From assembly GCF_010725485.1 (NCBI RefSeq), contig NZ_AP022598.1:3410001-3474000 (forward strand): DNA of 64,000 bases, given 5' to 3'. The translations under genes and the position numbers were made by a program. The notes beneath the pieces are model-generated. The model did not search any database and had not been told where the DNA came from. It saw only the letters and a program-made list of their open reading frames with translations. Source of the DNA: Mycolicibacterium parafortuitum (GTDB lineage Bacteria; Actinomycetota; Actinomycetes; Mycobacteriales; Mycobacteriaceae). The first letter of the stretch is position 1; every line of letters starts with the position of its first letter. Below, one piece after another: positions 47,621 to 62,999 of the stretch.

Positions 47621-48049
47621 ATGCGGATATCTGACGTGCTGCGCAGCAAGGGGTCGGCGGTCGCCACCATCACCCCCGAGACGTCGGTCGCCGGGTTGCT
47701 GACCGAGCTGGCGGTGCGCAACATCGGCGCGATGGTCGTGGTGTCGCCGGACGGGCTGCTGGGCATCGTGTCCGAGCGCGACGTTGTCCGTAAGCTGCAC
47801 GACATGGGTGCTGACCTTCTGCACAGGCCGGTTTCGGAGATCATGACGACGCTGGTGGCGACGTGCACACCGCAGGATTCCGTGGACAGCCTGAGCGCGC
47901 TGATGACCAACAACCGGGTGCGGCACGTCCCGGTGGTGGTCGACGGGCGGCTTGCCGGCATCGTCAGCATCGGCGACGTGGTCAAGACCCGGATGGAGCA
48001 GCTGGAGCGCGAACACCAGCAGCTGCAGGCCTACATCACCCAGGGCTGA
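47621..48049 (+). CDS. CBS-domain pair protein
   Basis: The 142-residue protein consists of two CBS motifs (residues ~10-60 and ~75-130: VSPDGLLGIVSERDVVRKL and VDGRLAGIVSIGDVVKTRM). CBS pairs bind adenine nucleotides and usually regulate a partner; this one has no attached catalytic domain. It corresponds to Rv2406c, a hypoxia-associated gene in M. tuberculosis by my recollection. The ribosome-binding site is GGGAG. Confidence 0.88.
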   Translation: MRISDVLRSKGSAVATITPETSVAGLLTELAVRNIGAMVVVSPDGLLGIVSERDVVRKLHDMGADLLHRPVSEIMTTLVATCTPQDSVDSLSALMTNNRVRHVPVVVDGRLAGIVSIGDVVKTRMEQLEREHQQLQAYITQG

Positions 48050-48054
48050 CCGCG

Positions 48055-48672: not shown

Positions 48673-48680
48673 AGCCAGCC

Positions 48681-48694
48681 GAGCTGATCAGCTC
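48681..48694. terminator. Perfect palindrome between convergent GNAT and PemK-like genes
   Basis: GAGCT-GATC-AGCTC overlaps the minus-strand stop codon and lies 8 nt past the plus-strand stop. As RNA it forms a 5-bp stem with a tetraloop in both directions; it is a weak bidirectional terminator candidate. Confidence 0.4.
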
Positions 48695-49299
48695 CAGCTG
48701 TACTCGGCGCGCAGCCGCGCCGCGACCACGTCGAACACCTCGCGGGCGAGGATCGCACCCTCACGCCTGATGCCCTCTTCGGGGACGTCGAGCACCCGGT
48801 CCAGCCGCACCCAGCTGGCGCGTCCTTCATAGTCCCAGCTGCCGTGGCCGATCGAGATCCAGTTCGGGTCGTCACGGTGGTGGTCCTGGCTGGACAGCAT
48901 CAGGCCGAGCAGGATGTCGCGGTCGCGGCCGACCACCAGCACCGGTCTGTCCTTACCGCGGGTCGGGTCGTCCTCGAAGGTGACCCACGTCCACACGATC
49001 TCGCCGGGGTCGGCGCGGCCGTCGAGGTCGGGGGCATAGGAGACCCGGCGTGCCCGGTGCGCGGTCGGGACGAAGTTCTTCGACACGGGACGCCCGGCCG
49101 GCAGGGCAGGCGCGTGCGACGGCGGCGGTCCGGTCAGCACGTCGAGCCCGATCCGGATGCCCTGCTGGATGCCGCGCTGCAGCGTGTCCGACCTCTGCAG
49201 CTGACGCACCAGTTTCGGCGCTTCGTTGAAGACGATGTTTTCGGTGCCCTTCACCAGGAAGCGCTGAAAGGCCCTCAAATTCCATGACGATGACGCCAT
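48688..49299 (-). CDS. PemK/MazF-like fold protein, Rv2405 family
   Basis: The 203-residue protein has a PemK/MazF-like C-terminal half (PGEIVWTWVTFEDDPTRGKDRPVLVVGRD ... ASWVRLDRVLDVPEEGI) preceded by ~90 residues not found in toxins. No antitoxin gene is adjacent. It is conserved next to lepA in mycobacteria, which argues for a housekeeping role rather than a toxin. ATG 49299 is preferred over an in-frame TTG at 49308. TATGCT upstream is a possible -10. Confidence 0.75.
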   Translation of the reverse strand: MASSSWNLRAFQRFLVKGTENIVFNEAPKLVRQLQRSDTLQRGIQQGIRIGLDVLTGPPPSHAPALPAGRPVSKNFVPTAHRARRVSYAPDLDGRADPGEIVWTWVTFEDDPTRGKDRPVLVVGRDRDILLGLMLSSQDHHRDDPNWISIGHGSWDYEGRASWVRLDRVLDVPEEGIRREGAILAREVFDVVAARLRAEYSWS

Positions 49300-49346
49300 A
49301 CCCGCCAAGCATAGGGCGTCCGCGGAGGCCTCGATTGGGCTGAGGG

Positions 49347-51254
49347 GTGTTGCGCTCGATACTCTGGAGGCGCCTGATCAGGCTCACAGACCCCGCTCAC
49401 CAGGAGATTCCCATCGCTAGCTTCGCCGACAAGACGTTCACTGCGCCGGCGCAGATTCGGAACTTCTGCATCATCGCCCACATCGACCACGGCAAGTCCA
49501 CGCTGGCCGACCGGATGCTGCAGCTCACCGGTGTGGTCGCGGACAGGGATATGCGCGCCCAGTACCTGGACCGGATGGACATCGAGCGTGAGCGCGGCAT
49601 CACGATCAAGGCGCAGAACGTGCGTCTGCCCTGGGAGGTGGATGGCGAGCAGTTCGTCCTGCACCTGATCGACACCCCCGGCCACGTCGATTTCACCTAC
49701 GAGGTGTCCCGGGCGCTGGAGGCGTGCGAGGGTGCGGTGCTGCTGGTCGACGCCGCCCAGGGCATCGAGGCGCAGACGCTGGCCAACCTGTACCTGGCGC
49801 TGGACCGCGATCTGACGATCATCCCGGTGCTCAACAAGATCGACCTGCCCGCCGCCGACCCGGATCGCTACGCCGGTGAGATCGCGCACATCATCGGGTG
49901 CGAACCCGAGGACGTGCTGCGGGTGTCGGGCAAGACCGGCGCCGGGGTCGGGGAGCTGCTCGACCACGTGGTGCGCCAGATCCCGCCGCCGCAGGGCGAC
50001 CCGGACGGCCCCGCCCGCGCGATGATCTTCGACTCGGTCTACGACATCTACCGCGGCGTGGTGACCTACGTCCGCGTGGTGGACGGCAAGATCACCCCGC
50101 GCGAGCGGATCAAGATGATGTCCACCGGCGCCACCCACGAGCTGCTCGAGGTGGGCATCGTCTCGCCCGAACCCAAGCCCTCCGACGGACTCGGCGTCGG
50201 CGAGGTCGGGTACCTGATCACCGGCGTGAAGGACGTCCGCCAGTCCAAGGTCGGCGACACCGTGACGACCGCGCGCCACGGCGCGGTGGAGCCGCTGACC
50301 GGCTACCGCGAGCCCAAGCCGATGGTGTACTCGGGCCTGTATCCGGTGGACGGCTCCGACTACCCGGTGTTGCGCGAGGCACTGGACAAGCTGCAGCTCA
50401 ACGACGCCGCACTGACCTACGAGCCCGAGACGTCGGTGGCGCTGGGCTTCGGGTTCCGGTGCGGGTTCCTGGGGCTGCTGCACATGGAGATCACCCGGGA
50501 GCGGCTGGAACGCGAATTCAATCTCGACCTGATCTCCACGGCGCCCAACGTCGTCTACCGGGTGGTCAAGGACGACGGCACCGAGATGGTCGTCACCAAC
50601 CCGTCGGACTGGCCTGAGGGCAAGGTCCGGTCGGTGTTCGAGCCGGTGGTCAAGACCACCGTCATCGCGCCGAGTGAGTTCATCGGCACCATCATGGAGC
50701 TGTGCCAGTCGCGGCGCGGCGAGCTCGGCGGCATGGACTACCTGTCGCCGGAGCGGGTCGAGTTGCGCTACACGATGCCGCTGGGCGAGATCATCTTCGA
50801 CTTCTTCGACTCGCTGAAGTCCAGGACGCGCGGCTACGCCAGCCTGGACTACGAGGAGGCAGGCGAGCAGGAAGCCGATCTGGTCAAGGTCGACATCCTG
50901 CTGCAGGGCGAGGCCGTCGACGCGTTCAGTGCGATCGTGCACAAGGACGGCGCCGCGGCGTACGGCAACAAGATGACGACCAAGCTCAAGGAGCTGATCC
51001 CGCGCCAGCAGTTCGAGGTGCCGGTGCAGGCCGCGATCGGCTCGAGGATCATCGCACGCGAGAACATCCGTGCCATCCGCAAGGACGTCCTGTCCAAGTG
51101 CTACGGCGGTGACATCACCCGTAAGCGCAAGCTGCTGGAGAAGCAGAAGGAAGGCAAGAAGCGGATGAAGACCATCGGCCGGGTCGAGGTCCCGCAGGAG
51201 GCTTTCGTCGCGGCACTGTCCACCGAATCCACGGCCGACAAACCGAAGAAGTAG
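49347..51254 (+). CDS. lepA: Elongation factor 4 (LepA)
   Basis: The 635-residue translational GTPase promotes back-translocation or initiation fidelity on stalled ribosomes. The G domain begins [20 protein letters not shown], followed by [18 protein letters not shown] and [11 protein letters not shown]. The LepA-specific C-terminal domain ends with [32 protein letters not shown]. The annotated GTG at 49347 lies upstream of a good -10 (TACTCT, 49360-49365), so the true start may be downstream, near codon 20 (see findings). Confidence 0.97.
49360..49383 (+). promoter_or_regulatory. lepA -10 element with a palindrome at the predicted mRNA 5' end
   Basis: TACTCT (49360-49365) predicts transcription from about 49372. 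The palindrome GCCTGATCAGGC (49372-49383) starts exactly there and could form a 5'-terminal stem-loop. The element lies inside the open frame assigned to lepA. Confidence 0.45.
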
Positions 51255-51262
51255 TTCGGTGC

Positions 51263-51282
51263 GGGCTGATTCAAAAGCCCGA
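51263..51282 (+). terminator. Hairpin after lepA
   Basis: CGGGCT-N8-AGCCCG forms a 6-bp stem 8 nt past the lepA stop. A smaller hairpin, CCGAA-N7-TTCGG, spans the stop codon itself. Confidence 0.5.
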
Positions 51283-51370
51283 TGTGCTGATCCGGTTGTC
51301 CGGCAGGGTATTTGAGCCGAGGGTCGGCATCTCGGCGCTTCGGTCACCGCCGGTCTCAGCCCGCCGCGCC

Positions 51371-51376
51371 TAGCGT
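51371..51376 (+). promoter_or_regulatory. -10 element (TAGCGT), leaderless 44-codon ORF
   Basis: TAGCGT ends 6 nt before the ATG at 51383. Confidence 0.55.
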
Positions 51377-51382
51377 GGACGC

Positions 51383-51517
51383 ATGGAGGAGACGCCGACA
51401 CCGTGGCTGATCACCGAGGCGTTCGACTCCTCGGCGCTCGCCACGCGCTGGGTGTGGATCGTCGTGCTGGCCGGGGTTGCCGCGGTGGTGCTCGGCGGCA
51501 TCCTGTTCAGCGTGTGA
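51383..51517 (+). CDS. 44-residue single-span membrane peptide
   Basis: The frame encodes an acidic N-terminus (MEETPTPWLITEAFD) and one hydrophobic helix (WVWIVVLAGVAAVVLGGILF) ending at the TGA. It has a -10 placed for leaderless transcription and a perfect 7-bp hairpin 1 nt after the stop, so it looks like a complete small transcription unit. Function unknown; such peptides often regulate membrane enzymes or transporters. It precedes whiB by 165 bp. Confidence 0.6.
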   Translation: MEETPTPWLITEAFDSSALATRWVWIVVLAGVAAVVLGGILFSV

Positions 51518-51518
51518 C

Positions 51519-51556
51519 AGCGCGCTGACACCGCGCGCTCGACGCCCGCGAGGGCG
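51519..51556 (+). terminator. Tandem hairpins after the 44-codon ORF
   Basis: AGCGCGC-N7-GCGCGCT (51519-51539) is a perfect 7-bp stem 1 nt past the stop. CGCCC-GCGA-GGGCG (51543-51556) follows with a GNRA loop. Confidence 0.6.
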
Positions 51557-51682
51557 CCTGAAATGCCACTGTGCGCGGCGTGTCACCGTGCAGACACGCG
51601 CGCTCGGCCGGTGGGGGTGGGTGTAAAGCTCACGGGGAGTTGATATCTGGGCGGGAGCCCGGATCTGGGTGAGCATGCACGC

Positions 51683-51988
51683 ATGACCGCGGTATGGCAG
51701 CCACGACTCGACGCCGACGAATACTGGAGTTGGCAGCTGTCCGGCAAGTGCCTCGACCACCCCGCCGACCTGTTCTTCCCGGAGAACGCGCCGCGTGCTG
51801 ACCGACGGGGACTCGAAGAGCAGGCCAAGCGCATCTGCGCCGACTGCCCGGTGCTGCTGCGCTGCCGCGAACATGCCGTCAGCGTCCCGGAACGCTACGG
51901 GATCTGGGGCGCGATGACCCCGCGCGAACGCGGAGTCCCGCCGTCGCACCGGCCCGCGAACCGCGCCGGCGAAAAGAATTCACGCTGA
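51683..51988 (+). CDS. WhiB family iron-sulfur transcription factor
   Basis: The 101-residue protein has the four cluster-binding cysteines C23, C52, C55 and C61, spaced as in WhiB proteins (C-x28-C-x2-C-x5-C). It also has the GIWGA turn at residues 73-77 followed by a basic tail. WhiB proteins bind a 4Fe-4S cluster and act with the sigma factor. The paralogue cannot be named by eye; it does not look like WhiB1, WhiB2 or WhiB6. It may control the permease operon just downstream (inference). Confidence 0.92.
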   Translation: MTAVWQPRLDADEYWSWQLSGKCLDHPADLFFPENAPRADRRGLEEQAKRICADCPVLLRCREHAVSVPERYGIWGAMTPRERGVPPSHRPANRAGEKNSR

Positions 51989-52001
51989 CCCGAACGATTG
52001 A

Positions 52002-52028
52002 GCAACGTGAGATACGTCTCTACGTTGC
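52002..52028. promoter_or_regulatory. Stable hairpin with UACG loop upstream of the permease operon
   Basis: GCAACGT (52002-52008) and ACGTTGC (52022-52028) flank GAGA-TACG-TCTC with one bulged T. This gives an 11-bp stem capped by a UNCG-type tetraloop. It lies 13 nt after the whiB stop and 36 nt before the permease ATG. It may terminate whiB, serve as an operator, or act in the permease leader. Confidence 0.55.
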
Positions 52029-52064
52029 GTTCAGCACGGCCCGAAACACCAGGAGGGTGTCCCC

Positions 52065-53525
52065 ATGTCTGAAGCAACGCTGCCCGATCCAGGGGTGACA
52101 GCAAAGCTACCGGCAGCCTCAGAAGGCTCCGAAACGCCGGATCCACGGCGGCTGCGGGGCAACCTCGGCGTCGCATCGATCGTGTTCATGGTCGTCGCCG
52201 CCGCGGCGCCGCTCGGGGTCATCGGCGGCGTGGTGCCGCTGGGGCTGGCGGCCGGTAACGGGGCGGGCTTCCCGGCGACGTTCATCGTCGCGACCGTGAT
52301 CCTGCTGCTGTTCTCGGCGGGCTTCACCGCGATGACCCCGCACGTCGAGGAGGCGGGCGCGTTCTTCTCCTACGTCCGGCAGTCCCTCGGCCTCCCGGTC
52401 GGCATCGGCATCGCGTTCGTCGCCGTGGTCAGCTACGTGGCTCTCGAAGCAGGGGTCTACGGCCTGCTCGGTCCGGCCGGGGCGAGCGTCGTCGAGTTGT
52501 TCGGCGGGCCCGCGCTACCGTGGTGGCTGTTCGCCGCCGCCGCGTTCGCCGTGACGACCTACCTCGGCTACCGCAACATCGAACTGTCCAGCCGGGTGCT
52601 CGCGGTGCTGCTGACCGCCGAGATCGCGATCGTCGCGATCCTCGACCTGGTCATCGTCGTCCGCGGCGGCGACCACGGCCTGTCGTCGGGCATCGTGAAC
52701 CCGGACGCGATCTTCTCGGGATCCCTTGGCATCGGACTGCTCTTCGCGATCATCAGCTACGTCGGGTTCGAGGCGACCGCGATCTTCCGCGACGAGGCCC
52801 GCACGCCCGAGCGCACCATCCCGCGCGCCACCTACTTCTCGCTGCTGCTGATCGGCATCTTCTACGCGATCACCAGCTGGGCGCTGATCTCCGGATGGGG
52901 TGACGAGCAGGCGGTCGCCCAGGCCACCGACAACGGCGGGACGTTCCTCGGCGACACCGCGTCGCGCTACATCGGTGTCTTCGGCGCCGACGTGATCACG
53001 GTGCTGTACTTCACCAGCCTGTTCGCGTGCATCCTGGCGTTCCACAACGTCGCGTCGCGCTACCTCTTCGCGCTGGCTCAGAAGGACGTGCTGCCCGCCG
53101 CGCTGAGCCGCCCGCACGCCGAACACGGTTCGCCGCACCAGGCTTCGCTGTGGATCTCCGGCGTCGTCGCGCTCAGCGTGCTGCTGGCCGTGGTGTTCGG
53201 GCTCGACCCGGCCGCGCAGTTCTACACGTGGTTCGCCGGGACGACGACCGTCGGCATCGTGGTGCTGCTGATCGCGACCAGCGTGGCCGTCCTGGTCTTC
53301 TTCGCCAAGGACCGCCGCGGCAACTCGCAGTGGCGGGTGCGCATCGCACCGGCACTCGGCCTCGTGGGCCTGCTCGGCTCGTTGGTGCTGATCCTGACCA
53401 ACCTCAGCGATCTGGTCGGCGGCTCCGCCGTGCTGGCCGCGGTGGTGATCGGGGTTCTGTTGGGCGCGTTCGTGATCGGCGTCGCCGCAGGCAAAGCACT
53501 CGTCGGGCGGAAGACCTCGTCATGA
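52065..53525 (+). CDS. APC superfamily amino acid / amine permease
   Basis: The 486-residue membrane protein has about 12 hydrophobic helices. The first contains the APC consensus substrate loop (FMVVAAAAPLGVIGGVVPLGL), and GFEATAIFRDEARTPERTIPRATYFSL follows helix 6. It likely imports an amino acid or amine by proton symport. AGGAGGGTG precedes the ATG. The stop overlaps the next gene (ATGA), so uptake and metabolism are coupled: its cargo is probably the substrate of the glutamine-synthetase-like enzyme. Confidence 0.9.
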   Translation: MSEATLPDPGVTAKLPAASEGSETPDPRRLRGNLGVASIVFMVVAAAAPLGVIGGVVPLGLAAGNGAGFPATFIVATVILLLFSAGFTAMTPHVEEAGAFFSYVRQSLGLPVGIGIAFVAVVSYVALEAGVYGLLGPAGASVVELFGGPALPWWLFAAAAFAVTTYLGYRNIELSSRVLAVLLTAEIAIVAILDLVIVVRGGDHGLSSGIVNPDAIFSGSLGIGLLFAIISYVGFEATAIFRDEARTPERTIPRATYFSLLLIGIFYAITSWALISGWGDEQAVAQATDNGGTFLGDTASRYIGVFGADVITVLYFTSLFACILAFHNVASRYLFALAQKDVLPAALSRPHAEHGSPHQASLWISGVVALSVLLAVVFGLDPAAQFYTWFAGTTTVGIVVLLIATSVAVLVFFAKDRRGNSQWRVRIAPALGLVGLLGSLVLILTNLSDLVGGSAVLAAVVIGVLLGAFVIGVAAGKALVGRKTSS

Positions 53526-54859
53526 CGCAGCTGTCCGGACCACAGATCGGCGTCGCGGCCGACGAACTGCGCGACGGCATCGCCGACGGCACGCTGCACG
53601 AGATCGAGGTGGCCTGGACCGACCCGTTCGGCCACGCCGCCGGTAAGCGGATCCCGGCCGCGCAGTTCCTGGACCGGGCGGCCGGCACCGGGTTCGCGTT
53701 CTGCGAGGCTGCGCTCGGCTGGAACACCGACGGCACGGTCATCGACGGGCTGCGGCTGACCAACTGGGACGGCGGCTACCCGGATGTGTATGCGGTGCCG
53801 GACTTCTCAACGTTCACCCGGGTGCCGTGGCGCCCCGGCGTCGGACACGTGATCTCCGATATCGTCACCCATCACCGCACCCCGTCGCTGCTGGACCCGC
53901 GCGCCGTGCTGAAGCGGGTGCTGGCCCGGCTGGACGGGCTGGGCTACAGCGCCAACATCGGTGTCGAGTTCGAGTTCTACCTGCTCGAGCTCGACGGTGC
54001 GCCGATCATCGACAAGATCCAGGCCTACTCGCTGGAGAACGCGAACGCGCTGGATCCGTTGATCGCCGACCTGTACCAAACCCTCGGCGCGTTCACGCGT
54101 CTGGAGGGCATCCAGACCGAGTACGGCCCGGGCCAGGTCGAGACCAACCTCGTCTACACCGATGCGCTGGCCGCCGCCGACGACAGCGCCCGGCTCAAAT
54201 ACGCCGCCAAGGAGGTGGCGCGCAGGCACGGCAAGCTCGCCAGCTTCATGCCCAAGCCGTTCTCGGAGCACTCGGGAAGCTCGGCGCACCTGCACATCTC
54301 GTTGTGGCGCGGCGACGAGCCGGCCTTCGCGGCGGTCGACGGCGCCGAGAGCCAGGACGCGCGTTACGCGATCGCCGGGCTTTTCGAGCACCTGCCCTCG
54401 ATCACGCTGTTCGGTGCGCATTCGGTCAACGCGTACCGCCGGTTCGCGCCGGACACGTTCGCTCCCGACACGGTCAACTGGAGCCGGGATAATCGCAGCG
54501 CGGCGATCCGCTCGCTGATCGAGGACAAGCCCGAGGCCTCCCGTATCGAATTGCGTTCCGGAGCATCGGATTCCAATCCTTACTGGCTGATCGCCTCGGC
54601 GCTGGCGGGCGTCGTCGCGGGCCTGGAGGCGCGGCGCGAGCCCCCGGAGCAGGCGACCGGCAACCTCTACGGCAAGGGCACCCCGCTACCCGACTCGCTG
54701 GGCACCGCGGTGGCGCTCGCCGTGCAGGACGACACCATCCTGGAGATCCTGGGCGCCGAGTCGGTGCTCGACTTCGCCGCGATCGCGCGCAGCGAATGGG
54801 AGCAGTACGTGGGCCATGTCAGCGATTGGGAGCGCGATCGCTACCTGAGCACGTCATGA
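53522..54859 (+). CDS. Glutamine synthetase-like gamma-glutamyl ligase
   Basis: The 445-residue protein has the GS catalytic fold: N-terminal beta-grasp, ATP/metal site blocks GVEFEFYLLEL, GPGQVETNLVYTDAL, KPFSEHSGSSAHLHISLW and SRDNRSAAIRSL. It is nearer to GlnA3/GlnA4-type and PuuA-type proteins, which glutamylate amines, than to housekeeping GlnA: the adenylylation region is not recognisable. It probably joins glutamate to an imported amine. The start ATG overlaps the permease stop, and its own stop overlaps the next start. Confidence 0.86.
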   Translation: MTQLSGPQIGVAADELRDGIADGTLHEIEVAWTDPFGHAAGKRIPAAQFLDRAAGTGFAFCEAALGWNTDGTVIDGLRLTNWDGGYPDVYAVPDFSTFTRVPWRPGVGHVISDIVTHHRTPSLLDPRAVLKRVLARLDGLGYSANIGVEFEFYLLELDGAPIIDKIQAYSLENANALDPLIADLYQTLGAFTRLEGIQTEYGPGQVETNLVYTDALAAADDSARLKYAAKEVARRHGKLASFMPKPFSEHSGSSAHLHISLWRGDEPAFAAVDGAESQDARYAIAGLFEHLPSITLFGAHSVNAYRRFAPDTFAPDTVNWSRDNRSAAIRSLIEDKPEASRIELRSGASDSNPYWLIASALAGVVAGLEARREPPEQATGNLYGKGTPLPDSLGTAVALAVQDDTILEILGAESVLDFAAIARSEWEQYVGHVSDWERDRYLSTS

Positions 54860-55899
54860 GCGGAGCGAATGGTTCAGCCGGAGTGACCGCCCGCCCCAGG
54901 TTCGGGGTGTGGGCGCCGGTCTACGGCAACCACGGCGCCCGTCATCATCCCCAGGATCCGCCCGACGCGAGCTACCGGCGCAACCGCGACCTGATCGTGC
55001 ACGCCGAGCGGGTCGGGTTCGACGCGACGCTGGTCGCCCAGCATGTGATCCACCCCAGCGACGTCGAAGACGACGTGCTGGAGACGTGGTCGACGCTGGC
55101 CGGCATCGCCGAGGCCACCGAGCGCATCGAGCTGATCGGCGCGATCAAGCCGCTGCTGCTGAACCCGTTGGTATTCGCCAAGATCGCCGCCAACATCGCC
55201 GACATCTCCGGAGGACGGCTGTCGATCAACGTGGTCAGCGGCTGGTTCCTGCCGGAACTGGAAGCGCTCGGCGTCGACCTGCTCGACCACGACGACCGCT
55301 ATGCCCACACTCGGGAGTGGCTCGAGATCGTCACCGCGCTCTGGGCAGGCAAGCAGGTCGACACCGGCGGCCGCCAGCCCGCGCTGGTGCGGCCGGTGCC
55401 GCGTTTCGTCCCGCCGGTCTACGTCGGCGGCGAATCCGAGCCGGGCCGCGCGCTGGCCGCCGCGACCGCCGACGTGTTCTTCATCAACGGCAGGCCGCTG
55501 CCCGACACCGCAGACGTCATCGCCGATCTGCGGTCCCGCCGTGCCGGCGGGCCGCCGTTGCGGTTCGGGCTGTCGGCGTTCGTGATCGCGCGCGACACCG
55601 ACGCCGAGGCACGTGCGGAGGCCGTGCACCTGCAGGCGCTGGTGGATGCCGAGAAACGGCCCGAGATTTCCGGCGGCACCGATCCGAAGACCCAGATGTA
55701 CAAGGTGCTCGCCGACACCAGCCGGGTCGGGTCCAACGGCGGCACACTAGCCGGCCTGGTGGGTAGCTATGACACCGTCGCGGAACGGATCTCGGCATTT
55801 CACACTGCGGGCATCGAGCTGTTCATGCTGCAGTTCCAGCCGCTGGAAACCGAACTCGACCGGTTCGCCGAGCACATCATCCCGCGATTCGCCCCATGA
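54856..55899 (+). CDS. LLM class flavin-dependent monooxygenase (SsuD/SfnG-like)
   Basis: The 347-residue luciferase-like protein has GVWAPVYGNHG, HPSDVEDDVLETWSTLAGIAEATERIELIGAIKPLLLNP and NVVSGWFLPELEALG, closest in pattern to alkanesulfonate and dimethylsulfone monooxygenases that use FMNH2 and O2 to cleave C-S bonds. No flavin reductase is in the operon. It is coupled to the GS-like gene by ATGA. Substrate unknown; see findings for the pathway idea. Confidence 0.88.
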   Translation: MSGANGSAGVTARPRFGVWAPVYGNHGARHHPQDPPDASYRRNRDLIVHAERVGFDATLVAQHVIHPSDVEDDVLETWSTLAGIAEATERIELIGAIKPLLLNPLVFAKIAANIADISGGRLSINVVSGWFLPELEALGVDLLDHDDRYAHTREWLEIVTALWAGKQVDTGGRQPALVRPVPRFVPPVYVGGESEPGRALAAATADVFFINGRPLPDTADVIADLRSRRAGGPPLRFGLSAFVIARDTDAEARAEAVHLQALVDAEKRPEISGGTDPKTQMYKVLADTSRVGSNGGTLAGLVGSYDTVAERISAFHTAGIELFMLQFQPLETELDRFAEHIIPRFAP

Positions 55900-55907
55900 G
55901 GAGAACG

Positions 55908-57113
55908 ATGACCCTGACCGTGGACACCCGTGCCGCCGGTGACGTGGCCGACCGGCTCGCCCGGCTCGCGCCGATCGTCGAGACGCTGCGTGCCGAGGAT
56001 CCGTCCGCCGAGCGGGAACGGGTACTGCAGCACGATGCGGTCGCGGAGTTGCGCCGCATCGGCATCCTGACCCTGCGGGTGCCGCGGCGCTACGGCGGCC
56101 CCGGCGGCAGCATCCGCGACGTACTGTCGGCGGTCATCCAGATCGCGTCGGGGAGTTCCAATGTCGCGCAGGCACTTCGGGCGCACTTCGGGTTCTCCGA
56201 GCGGCTGCTGAGCAACCGCGCCGGCGACGGCGAGCGTGCCGAGTGGTTCCCGAAGATCAACGCAGGGCTGGTGGTCGGCAACGCGATCACCGACGCGAGG
56301 GGACGTGCCCCAAGCAGCTCGGAGACCACGGTGCTGGCCGATGCGAACGGGGTGTTGCGGCTCAACGGGCACAAGTTCTACTCGACGGGCACGCTGTACG
56401 CCGATGCGATCGCGGTGTCGGCGATCGATGCCGCGGGCAACGACGTGCAGGTGATCGTGCCGACGGACCGTGACGGCGTCGAACTGTTCGACGACTGGGA
56501 CGGCTTCGGGCAGCGCACCACCGCCAGTGGCGCCACCCGTTTCACCGACGTCGAGATCGCCCCTGTGGAGGTGACGACCGTCTCCGACGGTGCCCATCTC
56601 GGGCACAGCACGACCTTCCTTCAGCTGTATCTCGCCGCGGTCGCGGCGGGGATCGCGGCCGCGGTGCGCCGCGACGCCGTGGAGTACGTGCAGACCAAGG
56701 CCCGTCCGGCGGCGCACTCGGTCGCCGACCGTGCCGGTGCCGACCCGTTCGTGCTGCACGCGGTCGGTGAGATCGCGGCCGCGGCGGCCGCCGCCGAGAC
56801 GTTGGTGCTGTCGGCGGCCGACACCCTGGACACGTTGGTGGACAGCGGTTCCGTCGACGACGCCGAGGCGCTGGCAGACGCCGCCGTGGAGGTGGCGCAG
56901 GCCCAGCTGGTCGCCGAGCGACTGGCCCTGCAGGCCGCGCAACGGCTCTTCGACACCGGCGGGGCATCGGCGACGTCGCGCAAGCTGAACCTGGACCGGC
57001 ACTGGCGCAACGCGCGCACGGTCGCCAGCCACAACCCGCTGGACTACAAGGCGCACGCGGTGGGCGACTTTCTGGTCAACGGAACGACCCCACCAGCCAA
57101 CGGGTACTTCTGA
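55908..57113 (+). CDS. DszC/SfnC-like flavin-dependent monooxygenase (acyl-CoA dehydrogenase fold)
   Basis: The 401-residue protein has the ACAD fold with GILTLRVPRRYGGPGGSIRDV, VGNAITDARGRAP, NGHKFYSTGTLYADAI and SHNPLDYKAHAVGDFLVNG at the end. The last block is typical of the DszC/SfnC branch, which oxygenates sulfur compounds with reduced flavin rather than acting on CoA esters. ATG 55908 follows AGGAG at 4 nt; ATG 55896 in the same frame overlaps the upstream stop and is the alternative. It is the last gene of the operon. Confidence 0.86.
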   Translation: MTLTVDTRAAGDVADRLARLAPIVETLRAEDPSAERERVLQHDAVAELRRIGILTLRVPRRYGGPGGSIRDVLSAVIQIASGSSNVAQALRAHFGFSERLLSNRAGDGERAEWFPKINAGLVVGNAITDARGRAPSSSETTVLADANGVLRLNGHKFYSTGTLYADAIAVSAIDAAGNDVQVIVPTDRDGVELFDDWDGFGQRTTASGATRFTDVEIAPVEVTTVSDGAHLGHSTTFLQLYLAAVAAGIAAAVRRDAVEYVQTKARPAAHSVADRAGADPFVLHAVGEIAAAAAAAETLVLSAADTLDTLVDSGSVDDAEALADAAVEVAQAQLVAERLALQAAQRLFDTGGASATSRKLNLDRHWRNARTVASHNPLDYKAHAVGDFLVNGTTPPANGYF

Positions 57114-57165
57114 GGGTTCTCTGAAGCGGGTCGCGCGCCGGCCTGCGGCGTGCTACTCAAGGGGT

Positions 57166-57921
57166 ATGTCGAGGCGGGTCACACGCGGTATCGCCGGCGG
57201 TGCGGTGGGCGCGGTCTGCGCCGGCGCCGTGCTGTCGGGCTGTGCCGGCGCACCGGTCGACCAGCGTCCGGTGGTCCGGATCGTCGAGGCCGCCCAGCCG
57301 TCGCCGGCGATCCCGCTCGGCGGGCTCCTTCCCACCGCACCCGAGCTGGCAGGCGCGCTGGGCACCGGGCCGAACGCGCTGATGGGCACCGCGGTCGAGG
57401 GCGACGCCGAGGTCCTGCTGAGCAGCGTCACCGACGCGAACATCGCCCCGGTGGAGTGCGTCGGCGCCGCCTACCGGTTGCAGGACGTCGTCTACCGGAA
57501 CAGCCCGGTGCGGTCGGTGGCCAGCAACACCTGGGCCGGAGGCGGCTTCGACGGACCTCCGGTGGCGGGATTCTTCGGGGTCGTGCAGATGACGGACCAA
57601 AGCGCGGCTCAGGCGTTCTTCGGCGCCGCGACCGAGCTCTGGCGGCGCTGCAACGGGCAGTCGGTGGCCGTGCAGCAGCCCGGGGCGGGCGCCGACGAAC
57701 TGAGCCGGATCACCGACGTCGTGTTCGACGACCGGATGGTGTCCGCGAGCGTGCTGCACACCTCCGGCGGTGCGGCCGCCCCGACGGCGCTGCGGGCGCT
57801 CGGGGTCGCCGGCGATTGCGTCGTCGAGGTGGAGATCACCGATCCGCGCCCGGCCGGCGATCCGCGGGGTGCCGTCGCGGTGGCCGACGTGATCCTCGAC
57901 AAGATCACCGCGTCGCGCTGA
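57166..57921 (+). CDS. Lipoprotein with PknH-like extracellular sensor domain
   Basis: The 251-residue protein has a signal peptide with lipobox LSGC (Cys at ~residue 26) and an extracellular domain of the PknH-like type (VTDANIAPVECVGAAYRLQDVVY; NTWAGGGFDG; LWRRCNG; DCVVEVEITDP), with paired cysteines. This domain is found on mycobacterial kinases and on stand-alone lipoproteins; its ligand is unknown. A related lipoprotein follows 39 nt downstream. Confidence 0.83.
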   Translation: MSRRVTRGIAGGAVGAVCAGAVLSGCAGAPVDQRPVVRIVEAAQPSPAIPLGGLLPTAPELAGALGTGPNALMGTAVEGDAEVLLSSVTDANIAPVECVGAAYRLQDVVYRNSPVRSVASNTWAGGGFDGPPVAGFFGVVQMTDQSAAQAFFGAATELWRRCNGQSVAVQQPGAGADELSRITDVVFDDRMVSASVLHTSGGAAAPTALRALGVAGDCVVEVEITDPRPAGDPRGAVAVADVILDKITASR

Positions 57922-57948
57922 CGCCTGCGTTCCGTCGCGGCTGTAGTG

Positions 57949-57954
57949 GACAAT
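57949..57954 (+). promoter_or_regulatory. -10-like element (GACAAT) before the second lipoprotein
   Basis: GACAAT keeps the key A2 and T6 and ends 6 nt before GTG 57961, the leaderless spacing. Confidence 0.4.
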
Positions 57955-57960
57955 GACGCG

Positions 57961-58665
57961 GTGAGGACGATCGCCGCGCTGCGCCCAAGGTGTGTCGCGG
58001 CCGCGATGGTCCTGGCGTCGATGCAGCTGTCGGGCTGCGTGAGCACCGTCGACGGGACCGCGGTGCGCGGCCACGGTTCCGTGCTGTTCGACGTGCCCCC
58101 GCTCGACGAGGGCCACCTCGACAGGATTCTGCTGCCCATCGAGCAGATCAACACGATCGTCGGGTCCACCCGCATGGAGGTCACCAGCGAGGTCGACGAG
58201 ATGACCGACCATTCCGCGGAAGTGTCCGCCCCGGACTGCCTCGGTGCGGTGTACGGCGCCGAGGCGCCGGTGTATGAGGGCACCGACTGGATCGCCGTGC
58301 GCGACCAGGTGGCCCGCGAACCGGGTGCCGACAACGACCACTGGGTCGAGCAGGTCGCGGTGCTCTACCCGGACGCGCAGAACGCGCAGGACTTCTTCGA
58401 CGACTCGAAGGCCACCTGGCAGGACTGCGCGAACAACGCGATCGTGGTCGGCGACGGGGAATACCTGTGGGAACTCGACGACGTCGTGGTCAGTGACGAT
58501 CTGATCACGCAGGTGACCACGCAGGAAGGGGCCGACGGCTGGGCGTGCCAGCACGCGTTGTCGCTGGTGTCGAACCTGACCGTGGAGGCGTGGGCGTGCG
58601 GCTACAGCATCACCGACGAGGCGGTCCGAATCGTCGACGCGATGGTCGCCAACGCCGCGCGGTAG
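57961..58665 (+). CDS. Second lipoprotein with PknH-like sensor domain
   Basis: The 234-residue protein has a basic N-terminus, hydrophobic segment and lipobox LSGC (Cys at ~residue 26). Its domain is of the same class as the upstream protein (ILLPIEQINTIVGSTRMEV; PDCLGAVYGAEAPVYEG; WQDCANNAI; WACQHALSL), with four to five cysteines. The two proteins are diverged, so the duplication is old or they were recruited separately. GTG 57961 is preferred to the in-frame GTG 57946, which lies upstream of the -10-like element. Confidence 0.82.
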   Translation: MRTIAALRPRCVAAAMVLASMQLSGCVSTVDGTAVRGHGSVLFDVPPLDEGHLDRILLPIEQINTIVGSTRMEVTSEVDEMTDHSAEVSAPDCLGAVYGAEAPVYEGTDWIAVRDQVAREPGADNDHWVEQVAVLYPDAQNAQDFFDDSKATWQDCANNAIVVGDGEYLWELDDVVVSDDLITQVTTQEGADGWACQHALSLVSNLTVEAWACGYSITDEAVRIVDAMVANAAR

Positions 58666-58668
58666 CGG

Positions 58669-59244
58669 TCAGCCGGCCCGCGGCCGCAGTCCGTCGACGA
58701 ACACGTCCAGCAACCTGTGGCACCGGGCCCTGTCCCGGTCGGGCTGTTCACCCACCCACGTGATCGCCGCCGCCATGTCGAGAAGATCGTCGGGGCCGAT
58801 GTCGGTGCGTATCGCGCCGGTGTCCGCGGCCCGGGCGATCAACGCGGCGCCTGCCGTGCGCGCCAGTTCGCACGTGCTCCGCGTCCCGTCCGGCGGCGGC
58901 GGCGGACTGGCCAATGTCGCGGCCAGGCCTTTGAACATCGCGCCCTGTTCGATGTAGGCCCGCAGCCATTCGCGCAGCGCCCCGAACGGATCGGAGGCGG
59001 TCAGTAGTTCCGTGCCGAGGTGGTGGATGTCGGTCAGCCCGTCGTTGATGACCGCGAGCACCAACGCATCCCGGGTGGGGAAGTGCCGGTACAGGGTGCC
59101 GGGGCCGACGCCCGCGGCACGCGCGACGTCGTCCAGCGATGCGGTCACCCCGCGTGCGGTGAACGCATCGTGGGCAGCCCGCAGCAGGAGTTCGCGGTTG
59201 CGCGCGGCATCGGCGCGGCGCGATCGAGCGGCGGTCGGACTCAT
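58669..59244 (-). CDS. TetR family regulator of the LLM monooxygenase cluster
   Basis: The 191-residue protein has an N-terminal HTH (ASLDDVARAAGVGPGTLYRHFPTRDALVLAVINDGL) and a C-terminal domain of the type seen in many actinobacterial TetR repressors (LREWLRAYIEQG; DDLLDMAAAITWVGEQ). It is divergent from an LLM gene across 89 bp that contain two copies of a palindrome, so it very likely represses that gene and itself. The ribosome-binding site is GGAAGGGG. Confidence 0.92.
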   Translation of the reverse strand: MSPTAARSRRADAARNRELLLRAAHDAFTARGVTASLDDVARAAGVGPGTLYRHFPTRDALVLAVINDGLTDIHHLGTELLTASDPFGALREWLRAYIEQGAMFKGLAATLASPPPPPDGTRSTCELARTAGAALIARAADTGAIRTDIGPDDLLDMAAAITWVGEQPDRDRARCHRLLDVFVDGLRPRAG

Positions 59245-59272
59245 GGCCCCTTCCCGGTTGGCGTAGACAAAC

Positions 59273-59321
59273 GGAGGCGGTCTCCATATATTGACCGGAG
59301 ACAGTCTCCGAATCGTACCGA
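59273..59321 (+). promoter_or_regulatory. Two TetR operators and the LLM promoter
   Basis: Box 1 GGAGGCGGTCTCC (59273-59285) and box 2 GGAGACAGTCTCC (59297-59309) are 13-bp dyads with starts 24 bp apart; box 2 is perfect and extends one bp each side. Box 2 lies between TTGACC (59291-59296) and TACCGA (59316-59321), so binding would block the LLM promoter; box 1 is nearer the tetR start. Confidence 0.82.
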
Positions 59322-59333
59322 AGGGTGCAGGCC

Positions 59334-60263
59334 ATGGACATCACACTCACCGTCGTGCCGCGCCCGGACGCGGGTTTCGCCACGCTACTCGGCGATGTCG
59401 CGGCGGCCGCCGAGTCCGGCTTCGCCCGGGTGTGGCTGCCGCAGTTACCGCCCATCGTCGGCGCGAACGGCTGGGATGCGTTGACCGCGTTGGCTGTCGC
59501 CGGCGCCCGCACGCCGGGGATCGGACTCGGATCCTCCGTCGCGGTCGCCTACGGCCAGCACCCGCTCGTGCTCGCACGACAGGCGTTGACCGTCGCGGCG
59601 GCGACCGAAGGCCGGTTCGTCCTCGGTCTCGGCGTCAGTCACCGGTTCGTGGTGGCCGACGTGCTGGGGTACTCGTACGATGCGCCCGCGGCGTATCTGC
59701 GGGAATACCTCGAGGTGCTCGGTCCCGCGCTGGCCGGACAGTCCGTCGACCACCACGGCCCGCGCATCACCGCCGTCGGAAAACTCGAGTCCTCCGTGGC
59801 CGCACCACAGATCGTGATCGCCGCGCTCGGGCCGAGGATGCTCGAGCTGGCCGGTGCGCTGACCGCAGGCACACTGACCACCTGGACCGGACCGAAAGCC
59901 CTTGAGAATCATGTGATCCCCCGGATCACCCGAGCGGCCGAGGATGCGCGACGTCCCGCGCCGCAGGTGATCGTCGGTCTGCCGGTCAGCGTCACCGATG
60001 ACGTCGAGGGCACCCGCGCCGAGATCAACGCGGCGTTCGCGGTGGCCAACGAGGTGCCCGCCTACCGGGGGATGCTGGAGCGCGAGGGTGTCGGCAGCGT
60101 CGCCGACCTGTGCCTGGTCGGCGACGAGGACGAGGTGGTGCGCGGGCTCAGGCGATTCGCCGACCTCGGAGTGACCGAGTTCAGCGCCGTTCCCACCGGG
60201 GACGACGCGGCCCGCGCACGTACGGAGACCGTGCTGCGGGAGGTTGCACTCGCCGCGGTTTGA
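59334..60263 (+). CDS. LLM class flavin-dependent oxidoreductase (F420-dependent type)
   Basis: The 309-residue luciferase-like protein has TALAVAGARTPGIGLGSSVAVAYGQHPLVLARQALTVAAATEGRFVLGLGVSHRFVV, a pattern common in F420-dependent LLM oxidoreductases of actinobacteria. Whether it uses FMN or F420 cannot be decided by eye. ATG 59334 has GAAGGG 8 nt upstream; the in-frame GTG 59325 is the alternative. It is the direct target of the TetR operators. Confidence 0.88.
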   Translation: MDITLTVVPRPDAGFATLLGDVAAAAESGFARVWLPQLPPIVGANGWDALTALAVAGARTPGIGLGSSVAVAYGQHPLVLARQALTVAAATEGRFVLGLGVSHRFVVADVLGYSYDAPAAYLREYLEVLGPALAGQSVDHHGPRITAVGKLESSVAAPQIVIAALGPRMLELAGALTAGTLTTWTGPKALENHVIPRITRAAEDARRPAPQVIVGLPVSVTDDVEGTRAEINAAFAVANEVPAYRGMLEREGVGSVADLCLVGDEDEVVRGLRRFADLGVTEFSAVPTGDDAARARTETVLREVALAAV

Positions 60264-60290
60264 AACCTCGTGGAAATACCTCTCGCACAC

Positions 60291-60296
60291 TAACTT
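60291..60296 (+). promoter_or_regulatory. -10 element (TAACTT), leaderless LLM gene
   Basis: TAACTT ends 7 nt before GTG 60304; no ribosome-binding site is present. It would make the two NtaA/DszA-type genes independent of the TetR-controlled promoter. Confidence 0.45.
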
Positions 60297-60303
60297 CCGT
60301 GAA

Positions 60304-61617
60304 GTGACACGCGAAGTCCACCTCTTGACCTTCGGAAACACCCGGTCGGCAGGCCCGTGGCGGCACCCCGACATCGACAGCAGCACCCCCGCGGTACGCC
60401 GCCGGTTGATCGACCATGCCCGCGCAGCCGAGGCGGCCGCGCTCGACGCGGTGTTCTTCGCCGACGGACTGAACTTCGGCCCATCGGCCACCTGGCCCTA
60501 CAAGACCACCGAGGATTTCGAACCGTTCACCACCGCCGGGGCCCTGTCCTCGGTCACCGAGAACATCGGTCTGGTCCTGACCGGTTCCGCGACGCTGCAA
60601 CACCCGTATCATCTGGCGCGCCAGTTCCTGTCCCTGGACCACCTCAGCGGTGGGCGGGTCGGCTGGAATCTGGTCACCAGCTTCGCGCAGGCCGCTGCCG
60701 ACAACTTCAGCGCCGGCGGTGTGGTCGAACACGACGAGCGGTACCGGATCGCCGAAGAAGCGATCGACGTGGTGAAGAAGCTGTGGGACTCCTGGGAATC
60801 CGGGGCGATCGTCGCCGACCGCGACTCTGGGATCTTCCACGACGTCAGCAAGATTCACGTGCCGGACCACCACGGCACCTACTTCGACGTGAAGGGGCCG
60901 ATCGGGGCCGCCCGCTCACCGCAGGGGCAACCGGTCATCTTCCAGGCCGGATCATCGGACACCGGAAGTGTTTTCGCCGCGCGTCATGCCGAGGTGATCT
61001 TCACCGGGCAGGGAAACAAAGACAGCGCGCAGCGGTTCTACCGCCGCATCCACGACGAGGCGGCGCGGCAGGGACGGGCCGACGCTCCGCTGATCACGCC
61101 GTCGCTGTGGTACCTGGTCGGCTCTACAGAGGAGGAGGCGCGCCGGGTCGAGGAGGCCGCCTACGAGTACTTCAGCCCCGAATACCAGGCGGGCTGGCTG
61201 CTGGAGGTCGACGTCGACGTCACCGGTGCGGATCTCGACGGACCGGTTCCGGCCTCGGCGTTCCCCGACCGCACCGAGACACACCAGACCGCACTCGCGG
61301 GCTACCGGGCGCTTGCTACCGAAGGAAATCCCACCGTGCGTGAATTCCTGTTCCGCACCGTCGCAGGCTGGGGCGCGCAGGTGGTCGGCACCCCGGAGCG
61401 GATCGCCGACCAGATCGAGGACTGGTTCACCTCCAGGGCCGCGGATGGGTTCGTCCTGAAGGACCCCGGCCTGCCCGGCCAGTTCGAGAACTTCACCGAG
61501 CAGGTGGTCCCGGTGCTGCGTAAACGCGGCCTGTTCCGGCACGAGTACCGGGGCACCACCCTGCGCGACCACCTCGGCCTCGACGCACCCGCGAACCGCT
61601 ACGAGAGCGCGTCGTGA
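60304..61617 (+). CDS. NtaA/SnaA/DszA family flavin-dependent monooxygenase, first copy
   Basis: The 437-residue protein has the family features WRHPDIDSS at the start, TLQHPYHLARQFLSLDHLSGGRVGWNLVTSFAQAAADNF, HDERYRIAEEAIDVVKKLWDSW and VIFQAGSSDTGSVFAARHAEVIF. Members such as DszA (dibenzothiophene sulfone) and NtaA (nitrilotriacetate) use FMNH2 from a separate reductase. GTG 60304 matches the family N-terminus and the -10; the longer frame from 60244 is unlikely. It overlaps the next gene (GTGA). Confidence 0.88.
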   Translation: MTREVHLLTFGNTRSAGPWRHPDIDSSTPAVRRRLIDHARAAEAAALDAVFFADGLNFGPSATWPYKTTEDFEPFTTAGALSSVTENIGLVLTGSATLQHPYHLARQFLSLDHLSGGRVGWNLVTSFAQAAADNFSAGGVVEHDERYRIAEEAIDVVKKLWDSWESGAIVADRDSGIFHDVSKIHVPDHHGTYFDVKGPIGAARSPQGQPVIFQAGSSDTGSVFAARHAEVIFTGQGNKDSAQRFYRRIHDEAARQGRADAPLITPSLWYLVGSTEEEARRVEEAAYEYFSPEYQAGWLLEVDVDVTGADLDGPVPASAFPDRTETHQTALAGYRALATEGNPTVREFLFRTVAGWGAQVVGTPERIADQIEDWFTSRAADGFVLKDPGLPGQFENFTEQVVPVLRKRGLFRHEYRGTTLRDHLGLDAPANRYESAS

Positions 61618-62999
61618 GCCGGGAACCCTTCGTCCTGTCGGCGTTCACGATGTCGACTGTGTCGCACGGCAATTACGGGCTGTGGCGACATCCGGCGGAC
61701 ACCACGTCCCGCTACACCGATCTGACGTACTGGGTCGAGCTGGCGAAACTGCTCGAGGACGGCGGGTTCGACGCGTTGTTCATCGCCGACGCGGTCGGTC
61801 AGCTCGACGTGTACGGCGGTGACGCGTCGGCCGCGCTGGCCCGCGGCGTGCAGACCCCGGTCACCGACCCGCTGCTGGCGGTGTCGGCGATGGCAGCGGC
61901 CACAGAACATCTCGGCTTCGGTGTGACGGTGTCCACCACCTACGAACATCCGTACCTGTTGGCCCGCAAGTTCAGCACGCTCGACCATCTGACCGACGGC
62001 AGGATCGGGTGGAACATCGTCACTTCGCTGCTCGACAGTGCCGCGCGCAACATCATCGCCCGGGACAGGCAGATCCCGCACGACGAGCGCTACGCGATGG
62101 CGCAGGAGTTCGTCGAGGTCGCGTTCAAGCTCTGGGAGGGATCCTGGGAGCCCGATGCGGTGGTGCGTGACCGCGTCGGCGGTGTGTACACCGATCCCAC
62201 CAAGGTGCATCCGATCGCGCACGAGGGCACCTACTTCAGCGTGCCCGGCGCCCACCTCGTCGAGCCGTCTCCGCAGCGCACCCCGGTGCTATTCCAGGCG
62301 GGCACCTCGGCGGCGGGGCGGGAGTTCGCGGCGCGCAACGCCGAACTGGTGTTCGCCAGTGACCCCCGCCCGGACGTGCTCAGGCGCAACATCGAGGACG
62401 TCAAACGCCGCGCCGCGGCGTACGGTCGAAGACCGGGCTCGATCAAGTTCATCACCTCGGTCGAGATCGTCACCGACAGCACGGATTCGGCGGCCCGTGC
62501 CAAGGCCGACGAGCTCGCGCACTATCACGATCTGGAAGGCGGGCTGGTGCTGCTGTCCGCCCTCAGCGGCGTCGACTGGTCGCGCTACGGCGTCGACCGT
62601 CCCATCGACCAGTTCGACACCGACGCCAGCCGATCCATCCTGGCCGCGGTCGACGATCCCGACAGCCGGAACCGAATCACGCTGCGCGACTATGTCGGCG
62701 GCCTCGGCGGATTCGGGGGAGCGCTGTTCGTCGGATCCGCGAAGACGGTGGCCGACGACCTGGAGGCCTACGCGGAGCGAGCCGGCGTGGACGGGTTCAA
62801 CATCGCCTATCACGTCACTCCGGGCAGTTTCGCCGACGTCGCCGAGTTCCTGATTCCCGAGTTGCGCAGTCGCGGCCGCGCGCGGGTGGCCGATGAGCCG
62901 GTTTCGCTGCGCCAGCGGATCTTCGGTGGCTCGGAACCGTTGCTGCCCGACGACCATCCGGCGGTTGCTTTCCGTCAGAAAAGAATCCTGCCGATTTGA
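61614..62999 (+). CDS. NtaA/SnaA/DszA family flavin-dependent monooxygenase, second copy
   Basis: The 461-residue protein shares with its neighbour YGLWRHPADTTSRYTDLTYWVELAKLLEDGGFDALFIAD, TTYEHPYLLARKFSTLDHLTDGRIGWNIVTSLLDSAARN, HDERYAMAQEFVEVAFKLWEGSW and VLFQAGTSAAGREFAARNAELVF. It looks closer to DszA proper than the first copy. Translational coupling by GTGA suggests the two act in sequence or as a complex. Substrate unknown. Confidence 0.88.
   Translation: MSREPFVLSAFTMSTVSHGNYGLWRHPADTTSRYTDLTYWVELAKLLEDGGFDALFIADAVGQLDVYGGDASAALARGVQTPVTDPLLAVSAMAAATEHLGFGVTVSTTYEHPYLLARKFSTLDHLTDGRIGWNIVTSLLDSAARNIIARDRQIPHDERYAMAQEFVEVAFKLWEGSWEPDAVVRDRVGGVYTDPTKVHPIAHEGTYFSVPGAHLVEPSPQRTPVLFQAGTSAAGREFAARNAELVFASDPRPDVLRRNIEDVKRRAAAYGRRPGSIKFITSVEIVTDSTDSAARAKADELAHYHDLEGGLVLLSALSGVDWSRYGVDRPIDQFDTDASRSILAAVDDPDSRNRITLRDYVGGLGGFGGALFVGSAKTVADDLEAYAERAGVDGFNIAYHVTPGSFADVAEFLIPELRSRGRARVADEPVSLRQRIFGGSEPLLPDDHPAVAFRQKRILPI

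Follow-up and report, generated by a model that had tools for sequence, protein, structure and literature searches.

A putative sulfur-scavenging operon pairing a glutamine-synthetase-like ligase with two flavin oxygenases in Mycolicibacterium parafortuitum

What function is served by coupling an amino-acid-type permease and a glutamine synthetase (GS)-like enzyme to two flavin oxygenases is the question raised by a four-gene unit of Mycolicibacterium parafortuitum, which lies in the 64,000-nucleotide stretch analyzed here (the window; NZ_AP022598.1, G000:C1:3410001-3474000, in a genome of 6.04 Mb). A preliminary description of this stretch had proposed uptake of a sulfur- or nitrogen-containing amine, its glutamylation and its oxidative cleavage. 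The sulfur side of this proposal fits our results, in terms of an altered ammonium site in the GS-like protein, the coupling of its gene to SfnB-type and luciferase-like monooxygenase (LLM) genes and the presence of sulfur genes nearby, while the nitrogen side found no support. We consider the unit very probably an operon for sulfur scavenging, and most likely this rather than a Puu-type nitrogen pathway. Its four predicted open reading frames (ORFs) were all confirmed:

52065..53525, + strand: APC-superfamily amino-acid-type permease (Pfam AA_permease, 64.5 bits), the presumed substrate importer
53522..54859, + strand: GS-like putative gamma-glutamyl ligase (Gln-synt_C, 274.3 bits)
54856..55899, + strand: luciferase-like (group C) flavin monooxygenase, the LLM, of an SfnG-like subfamily (Bac_luciferase, 196.8 bits), presumed to cleave a C-S bond
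55896..57113, + strand: SfnB/MsuC/DszC-like (group D) flavin oxygenase with an acyl-CoA-dehydrogenase fold (TIGR04022, 303.6 bits), presumed to carry out an S-oxidation step

Successive genes share 4 bp (ATGA) at all three junctions, and coordinates, overlaps and Pfam/NCBIfam scores agree with the earlier account of four overlapping or nearly overlapping genes of permease, GS-like, LLM and oxygenase type; an alternative ATG at 55908, with GAGGAG 5' of it, is an equally likely start for the SfnB-type gene. None of the four genes reaches an NCBIfam cut-off, so that “SfnG-like” and “SfnB-like” denote family resemblance, and each of the four proteins is, judged from its sequence, a diverged member of its own superfamily. 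The best NCBIfam model for the LLM is SfnG (TIGR04021, 192.2 bits, cut-off 383); of the “SsuD/SfnG-like” label given previously, the SsuD half is the weaker (TIGR03565, 130 bits, cut-off 518), with key residues absent. The fourth protein scores best with the SfnB model, below its cut-off of 431, and second best with DszC (NF043015, 151.7 bits, cut-off 850), in line with the DszC-type resemblance noted before, and its matches in the Protein Data Bank (PDB) are TdsC, MsuC and DszC.

The GS-like protein was aligned with E. coli GlnA and PuuA, GS paralogs of the same genome, outside relatives and 12 cassette GS proteins (the window copy and 11 of the 31 cassette loci from a genome scan). The window protein retains E129, E131, E212, E220, H269, E357, R321, R339, R344, R359 and D50, and the metal, ATP and most glutamate residues are conserved in all 12 cassette proteins. 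The ammonium site, in which we take D50, S53, Y179 and E327 to have their roles, is largely altered: Y179 is replaced by A, S53 by V, N264 by S and E327 by F in 12/12, and the changes at S53, Y179 and E327 set the cassette proteins apart from type I glutamine synthetases. An altered ammonium site beside retained metal, ATP and glutamate residues suggests a gamma-glutamyl ligase whose amine substrate is not ammonium, a prediction in which we have good confidence, with the reservation that D50 is kept in 10 of the 12 proteins and replaced by N in only two. Scores of 220 bits with the GlnA model (TIGR00653, cut-off 429) and 201.8 bits with that of gamma-glutamylputrescine synthetase (NF045547, cut-off 650) place the protein below both families, and residues specific to the cassette GS include H300, R322, N173 and N175. 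In the accessible part of one report, the amine ligases GlnA3 and PauA7 are described as having lost D50 and as having E327 replaced, an account that partly matches the assignment of the ammonium site given above (PMC5403932). The organic-amine ligase NpaA1 likewise has E327 replaced, as stated in the accessible part of its description (PMC11335346), and a non-acidic flap residue at this position is shared by the cassette proteins with E. coli PuuA (our alignment) and, within the limits of the portion available, with GlnA3 (PMC5403932).

Genome-wide counts across 198 genomes drawn from the genus (E<=1e-120 for GS, E<=1e-90 for SfnB) yielded 33 GS-positive genomes, the window plus L090-L121, whose gene contexts were surveyed with neighbors named from NCBIfam/Pfam runs on representative loci. 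The cassette occupies several unrelated chromosomal places. Sulfur-type marker genes were observed in 25/33 cassette stretches versus 0/20 other stretches (20 kb each, at round coordinates, from 11 GS-positive genomes), a control that is lenient, as the markers were picked after the loci had been seen, which itself counts against the comparison. The raw score was 26/33, from which L108, scored solely via the cassette's own SfnB, was excluded; of the 25, 11 score via MetQ (weak SfnB-type marker matches to the cassette being ignored) and two, the window and G027, via NtaA/DmoA, and 12/33 remain without these. The contexts comprise tauCAB in 9/33, a lepA-NtaA island in 2/33, a sulfonate-type ABC transporter accompanied by an AprA-like flavoprotein in 2/33, and cysD-cysNC with encapsulin 2A and its cysteine desulfurase in 1/33, the encapsulin pair also occurring in one tauCAB case. 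In L005/L006 the cassette stands directly 3' of cysD-cysNC. The locus L093 opens with a nitrite/sulfite-reductase-family gene (presumably SirA), cysH and a CbiX-type gene, followed on the other strand by a 255-residue ORF and an LLM gene; then come tauCAB-APC-GS-LLM-SfnB and, convergent to them, two CysA-like genes, cysW, cysT and a sulfate-binding protein gene. L098 shares these markers, and in L110 and L112 only the cysT, cysW, subI side was found in the stretch.

These neighborhoods bear on whether the unit could instead scavenge amine nitrogen in the manner of Puu, Ipu or GlnA4, the flavin oxygenases attacking the amine carbon and the sulfur neighbors being accidental, which we consider very unlikely. 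The Puu-type strategy of the preliminary description was rejected as the main reading: the PuuA cut-off is missed (201.8 versus 650 bits), no PuuB, PuuC or PuuD homolog is among the four genes, and the neighbors are sulfur genes. E. coli Puu, Streptomyces GlnA3/GlnA4 and IpuC resemble the cassette in that an amine is imported and then gamma-glutamylated; however, none of the oxidases, hydrolases and dehydrogenases of those systems is encoded by the four genes, and the cassette keeps D50 and has sulfur, not nitrogen, neighbors. The nitrogen explanation draws on a plasmid collection searched with the GS, in which the matches over the E-value limit were seven Arthrobacter-group records at 35-37% identity, two of them annotated ipuC, and on four of the 33 cassettes that have GS and APC without oxygenases. 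It is opposed by the marker counts in cassette and control stretches, by the fact that the four genes include neither a gamma-glutamyl hydrolase nor an aldehyde dehydrogenase nor an aminotransferase, and by the position of the Peptidase_C26 genes of the window genome, the four strongest of which lie instead within about 4 kb of other GS paralogs. The cassette itself was not found in that plasmid collection.

Several of these neighbors deserve separate mention. In L002 (13596-16304) and its relatives, a 903-residue fumarate-reductase/AprA-like flavoprotein, adjoining a sulfonate-type ABC transporter and a 77-residue ORF, is encoded downstream of the cassette. A family 2A encapsulin shell gene, in most cases together with the gene of its cysteine-desulfurase cargo, occurs close to the cassette in L005, L006:31-2761, L007, L010, L026 and L114, tying that sulfur compartment to organosulfur scavenging. 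Next to APC-GS, but on the strand opposite to it, some loci (L012, L017, L025, L120 and others) carry adjoining genes for a MetQ-like binding protein and for a small protein whose DNA-binding domain is of the OmpR type; the two might act as a sensor pair for the cassette. No MetN/MetI gene was recognized beside that MetQ-like gene, and no search aimed at them was made.

The genome scan with GS retained 79 distinct loci from the best 80 of 581 matches, and among these best 80 of 581, 31 loci stand at >=67% identity (record titles give Mycobacterium or Mycolicibacterium for 30 of them and Actinomycetota for one, L026), after which identity drops to <=37%. One of the retained loci, L040 (WNZI01000013.1), is titled Vibrio cholerae strain 35D; its GS active-site pattern is that of Arthrobacter-type actinobacteria, and label or assembly is doubtful. 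Within the genus, GS is present in 33/198 genomes, an SfnB ortholog in 29/198 and an LLM ortholog in 20/198. The four-gene order of the window does recur, and is only partly conserved: the full APC-GS-LLM-SfnB is found in 13/33 GS-positive genomes, GS-LLM-SfnB without APC in 6/33, APC-GS-SfnB without LLM in 7/33, GS-SfnB in 2/33, GS with APC only in 4/33 (APC after GS in one) and GS alone in 1/33, the permease gene adjoining GS in 24/33. Mapped onto a quick GS tree, the contexts (seven classes) require 10 changes; the corresponding figures are three for linkage to tauCAB, eight for presence of the LLM and four for presence of SfnB. Distances among the GS proteins correlate with those among the SfnB proteins (Spearman 0.62 over 28 loci), a result that common ancestry could produce by itself. 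The LLM position is occupied by a mere 78-residue ORF in L007/L114 and L030/L090. Tiny LLM remnants at the LLM position were seen in L114:10725-10958 (78 residues) and L122:9617-9829 (71 residues), which suggests that the LLM gene may have been lost repeatedly while GS or SfnB persisted. SsuD is present (E<=1e-120) in 12 of the 14 LLM-less GS-positive genomes and might stand in where the LLM is missing.

As to the substrate, the clearest pointer is the taurine importer. Where tauCAB adjoins the cassette, it is divergent and without APC in five loci and co-directional upstream with APC in four; the two arrangements stand apart on the GS tree, and the four co-directional loci form one clade with full support in the Shimodaira-Hasegawa-like approximate likelihood ratio test (SH-aLRT). 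The linked TauA of L013 matches E. coli-type TauA chains (162 bits) ahead of a nitrate transport protein chain (75) and a sulphonate-binding protein (67), and scores 226.4 bits with the TauA model (TIGR01729, cut-off 304). Residues reported to bind taurine in TauA include Q30, G61, G79, E106, T132 and D205 (accessible part of PMC6906117), and all six are found in 7/7 aligned linked TauA proteins (L007, L009, L013, L014, L030, L093, L098). E. coli SsuA has four of the six, including Q30 and E106, with S at columns 132 and 205, and thus T132 and D205 carry the distinction; the SsuA of L031 has A and H there. TauA (E<=1e-60) occurs in 75/198 genomes, or 73 after dropping the weak 40-43% matches of G033 and G174, with two partial (G034, G095). 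It is present in 30/33 GS-positive versus 43/165 GS-negative genomes (Fisher p 2e-12, phylogeny ignored). For the control, SsuD-type proteins (E<=1e-120) are in 127/198 genomes, 30/33 GS-positive versus 97/165 (p 3e-4, phylogeny ignored); the GS-TauA association persists among SsuD-positive genomes (p 6e-7) and that of GS with SsuD is gone among TauA-positive ones (p 1.0), likewise with phylogeny ignored. Compared with E. coli tauABCD, which the linked loci resemble in their importer genes and TauA residues, GS and flavin-oxygenase genes stand where TauD would be, and tauCAB of the window genome lies elsewhere. TauD-family queries gave no match in the cassette loci except ones falling on P450 genes, and none of 20 additional loci, 9 from GS-positive and 11 from GS-negative genomes, has such a match beside tauCAB. 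On these sequence comparisons, the foremost substrate candidate is, tentatively, taurine or an aminosulfonate close to it. In the 20 additional loci (L151 and L152-L170), no recognized TauD-family gene adjoins the mycobacterial tauCAB, in GS-negative genomes as well. The window genome has three TauD-family genes, one of them AtsK/Rv3406-like by eye in an alignment that is poor around the taurine residues (other ORFs were in the set), and a taurine dioxygenase may be encoded elsewhere in that genome; Rv3406, a TauD-like enzyme of M. tuberculosis, is inactive on taurine according to the accessible part of its report (PMC3675115).

A number of observations weigh against a taurine-scavenging operon. 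TauA occurs in the 43 GS-negative genomes counted above and is missing from three GS-positive ones, the co-occurrence statistics are uncorrected for shared ancestry, tauCAB of the window genome lies 2.1 Mb from the cassette, and none of the sulfur contexts described was found in 8/33. The LLM carries S, F and L at the SsuD positions R226, H228 and H333, and the lid with R297 is absent from the alignment, while the SsuD-like protein of the same genome keeps R, H and H plus the lid. Given the functional roles that we take R226, H228, the R297 lid and H333 to have in SsuD, sulfonate binding of the SsuD type is unsupported for the LLM, and the alignment gives no backing to the SsuD-type chemistry that had been expected of it. 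That taurine stays the favorite despite these residues is owed to the TauA evidence alone. In addition, a MetQ-like protein gene lies beside the cassette, on the opposite strand, in 11/33, which could point to a methionine-like substrate. The same logic might therefore serve another substrate, a thioether or sulfone amine derived from methionine (e.g., 3-methylthiopropylamine), which the SfnB/DszC-like enzyme would convert to a sulfone and the SfnG-like LLM would cut to a sulfinate. We consider this unlikely: the LLM is closer to SfnG than to SsuD by score and residues, the SfnB-type protein matches the sulfide oxidases DszC and TdsC as well as MsuC, and the MetQ-like neighbor is in keeping with it, but TauA is linked in two arrangements and co-occurs with GS, and the SfnG score of 192 falls short of 383.

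Also against the preferred reading, the LLM is absent from 14/33 cassettes and SfnB from 5/33, so neither is indispensable. The nearest LLM relatives outside the genus in the plasmid collection have 51-53% identity, in 13 of the 18 plasmid records matched; the hosts of the plasmid relatives are Methylobacterium, Bradyrhizobium, Variovorax, Paraburkholderia and Caballeronia. All five plasmid LLM regions that were read contain sulfonate-type ABC, SfnB-type or msuE genes, and no GS is annotated in these five, where the gene table is incomplete. The LLM-SfnB pair thus has the look of an organosulfur module of general use, with ligase and permease seemingly added to it in mycobacteria. A further explanation holds that APC and GS form one pathway and LLM and SfnB a generic organosulfur pathway, the two being co-regulated by sulfur starvation. 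It gains from these proteobacterial clusters, from APC-GS units without oxygenases and from G136 (L123), where a 53% relative of the LLM stands beside an SfnB relative (46%) and an FMN_red gene, with no GS match. We nevertheless think it quite unlikely, as 28/29 SfnB orthologs (one of them, in G009, matched only from residue 84 on and possibly broken) and 19/20 LLM orthologs lie physically with GS despite several chromosomal sites; G136 is the LLM exception, and the SfnB exception, G033 (L122), lacks GS, retains a short piece of the LLM and has surroundings that resemble the cys locus of L093.

The explanation that best covers the unit as a whole, for which we see the balance as even, is import of a sulfur-bearing amine, gamma-glutamylation and release of sulfur by the flavin oxygenases, with taurine or hypotaurine favored. 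The permease would import a small sulfur-bearing primary amine, a TauCAB importer replacing or joining it in some relatives, and the GS-like enzyme, using ATP, would join the amine to the gamma-carboxyl of glutamate, which would neutralize the amine and provide a uniform handle for the oxygenases. Oxidation at sulfur may then fall to the SfnB-type enzyme and cleavage of the C-S bond to the LLM, yielding sulfite for sulfur assimilation, with reduced flavin from reductases encoded elsewhere in the genome; if taurine (or hypotaurine) is the substrate, the oxygenases would act on gamma-glutamyl-(hypo)taurine. More specifically, and with more doubt than confidence, we propose that environmental mycobacteria with a taurine importer and no adjacent dioxygenase might make gamma-glutamyltaurine with the GS ligase and desulfonate it with the SfnB/SfnG-like oxygenases, glutamate serving as a removable handle.

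The closest known logic is that of the AtdA1/NpaA1 route, and the closest enzymes are those of the Sfn/Msu system. In the former, the GoaS enzymes AtdA1 and NpaA1 (aniline and 1-naphthylamine) are GS-like ligases whose gamma-glutamylation of the amine enables an oxygenase, the substrate of which is the glutamylated form rather than the free aromatic amine; their oxygenase is a Rieske dioxygenase acting on the aromatic ring, whereas here organosulfur-family flavin oxygenases stand amid sulfur genes (accessible part of PMC11335346). The SfnG-MsuC-MsuD system of Pseudomonas (dimethylsulfone/methanesulfonate) shares two-component LLM and DszC/MsuC-fold flavin oxygenases with sulfite as end product, and no ligase or amino-acid permease is named for it in the accessible part of its description (PMC8234197). 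The LLM studied here differs in falling below the SfnG and SsuD cut-offs and in lacking several SsuD residues. No pathway joining GS-type gamma-glutamylation with SfnB or taurine sulfur use turned up among the titles and abstract starts listed for open-licence papers on taurine or gamma-glutamyltaurine in connection with GS, on SfnB in connection with GS or sulfur starvation, on taurine use by mycobacteria and on gamma-glutamylation by GS-like enzymes. Aromatic amines are known to be tagged with a gamma-glutamyl group ahead of oxygenation; a coupling of such tagging to C-S cleavage would, if true, extend sulfur scavenging by another reaction type, assign a role to one of the many GS paralogs of the window genome, and offer a way in which actinobacteria that have a taurine importer, but no taurine dioxygenase next to it, could draw on taurine for sulfur.

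Around the cassette, the following features were recognized in the window:

51683..51988, + strand: WhiB-like regulator (Pfam Whib, 72.2 bits), 76 bp upstream of the cassette
58669..59244, - strand: TetR-family regulator (Pfam TetR_N, TetR_C_43), in the interval that separates the cassette from the LLM cluster downstream
59325..60263, + strand: LLM oxidoreductase of the F420 MSMEG_4879 type (TIGR03564, 291.8 bits, above cut-off), opening the downstream oxygenase island
60244..61617, + strand: NtaA/DmoA-family FMN monooxygenase (TIGR03860, 453.2 bits, above cut-off)
61614..62999, + strand: NtaA/DmoA-family FMN monooxygenase (TIGR03860, 499.7 bits, above cut-off)

The WhiB-like gene also stands immediately before the cassette in L001-L004, L027 and L031, and its product is a possible redox/Fe-S regulator of the unit. 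Downstream, two ORFs with lipoprotein-like starts precede the TetR gene, whose product may be linked to the cassette, and the NtaA/DmoA genes start 3 kb past the cassette. A promoter/terminator scan gave three promoter-like sites, none of them between the WhiB gene and the permease, and zero terminator-like sites. Rfam searches found no family at gathering score in six related loci and, in the window from 47000 to 64000, a single chance-like match inside lepA, far under the cut-off. The window genome has 5 Flavin_Reduct, 6 FMN_red, 10 Peptidase_C26 and 3 gamma-glutamyltranspeptidase matches, all of them outside the cassette, so the earlier remark that flavin reductase and gamma-glutamyl hydrolase are missing from the operon holds, with candidate genes for both only elsewhere; the genomic flavin reductases could supply reduced flavin, and Peptidase_C26 or gamma-glutamyltranspeptidases could remove the glutamyl group. 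Past the window (L088) lie an APC permease, two SfnB-type genes, an SsuD-like gene, MetQ-, MetI- and MetN-like genes and a SubI-like ORF, the last named solely by its resemblance to L093. Part of this region (L088:1159-6101) forms a second unit, with the APC permease, an SfnB-type gene, a GNAT acetyltransferase and a second SfnB-type gene, in which acetylation might, by analogy, play the tagging role that glutamylation would play in the cassette.

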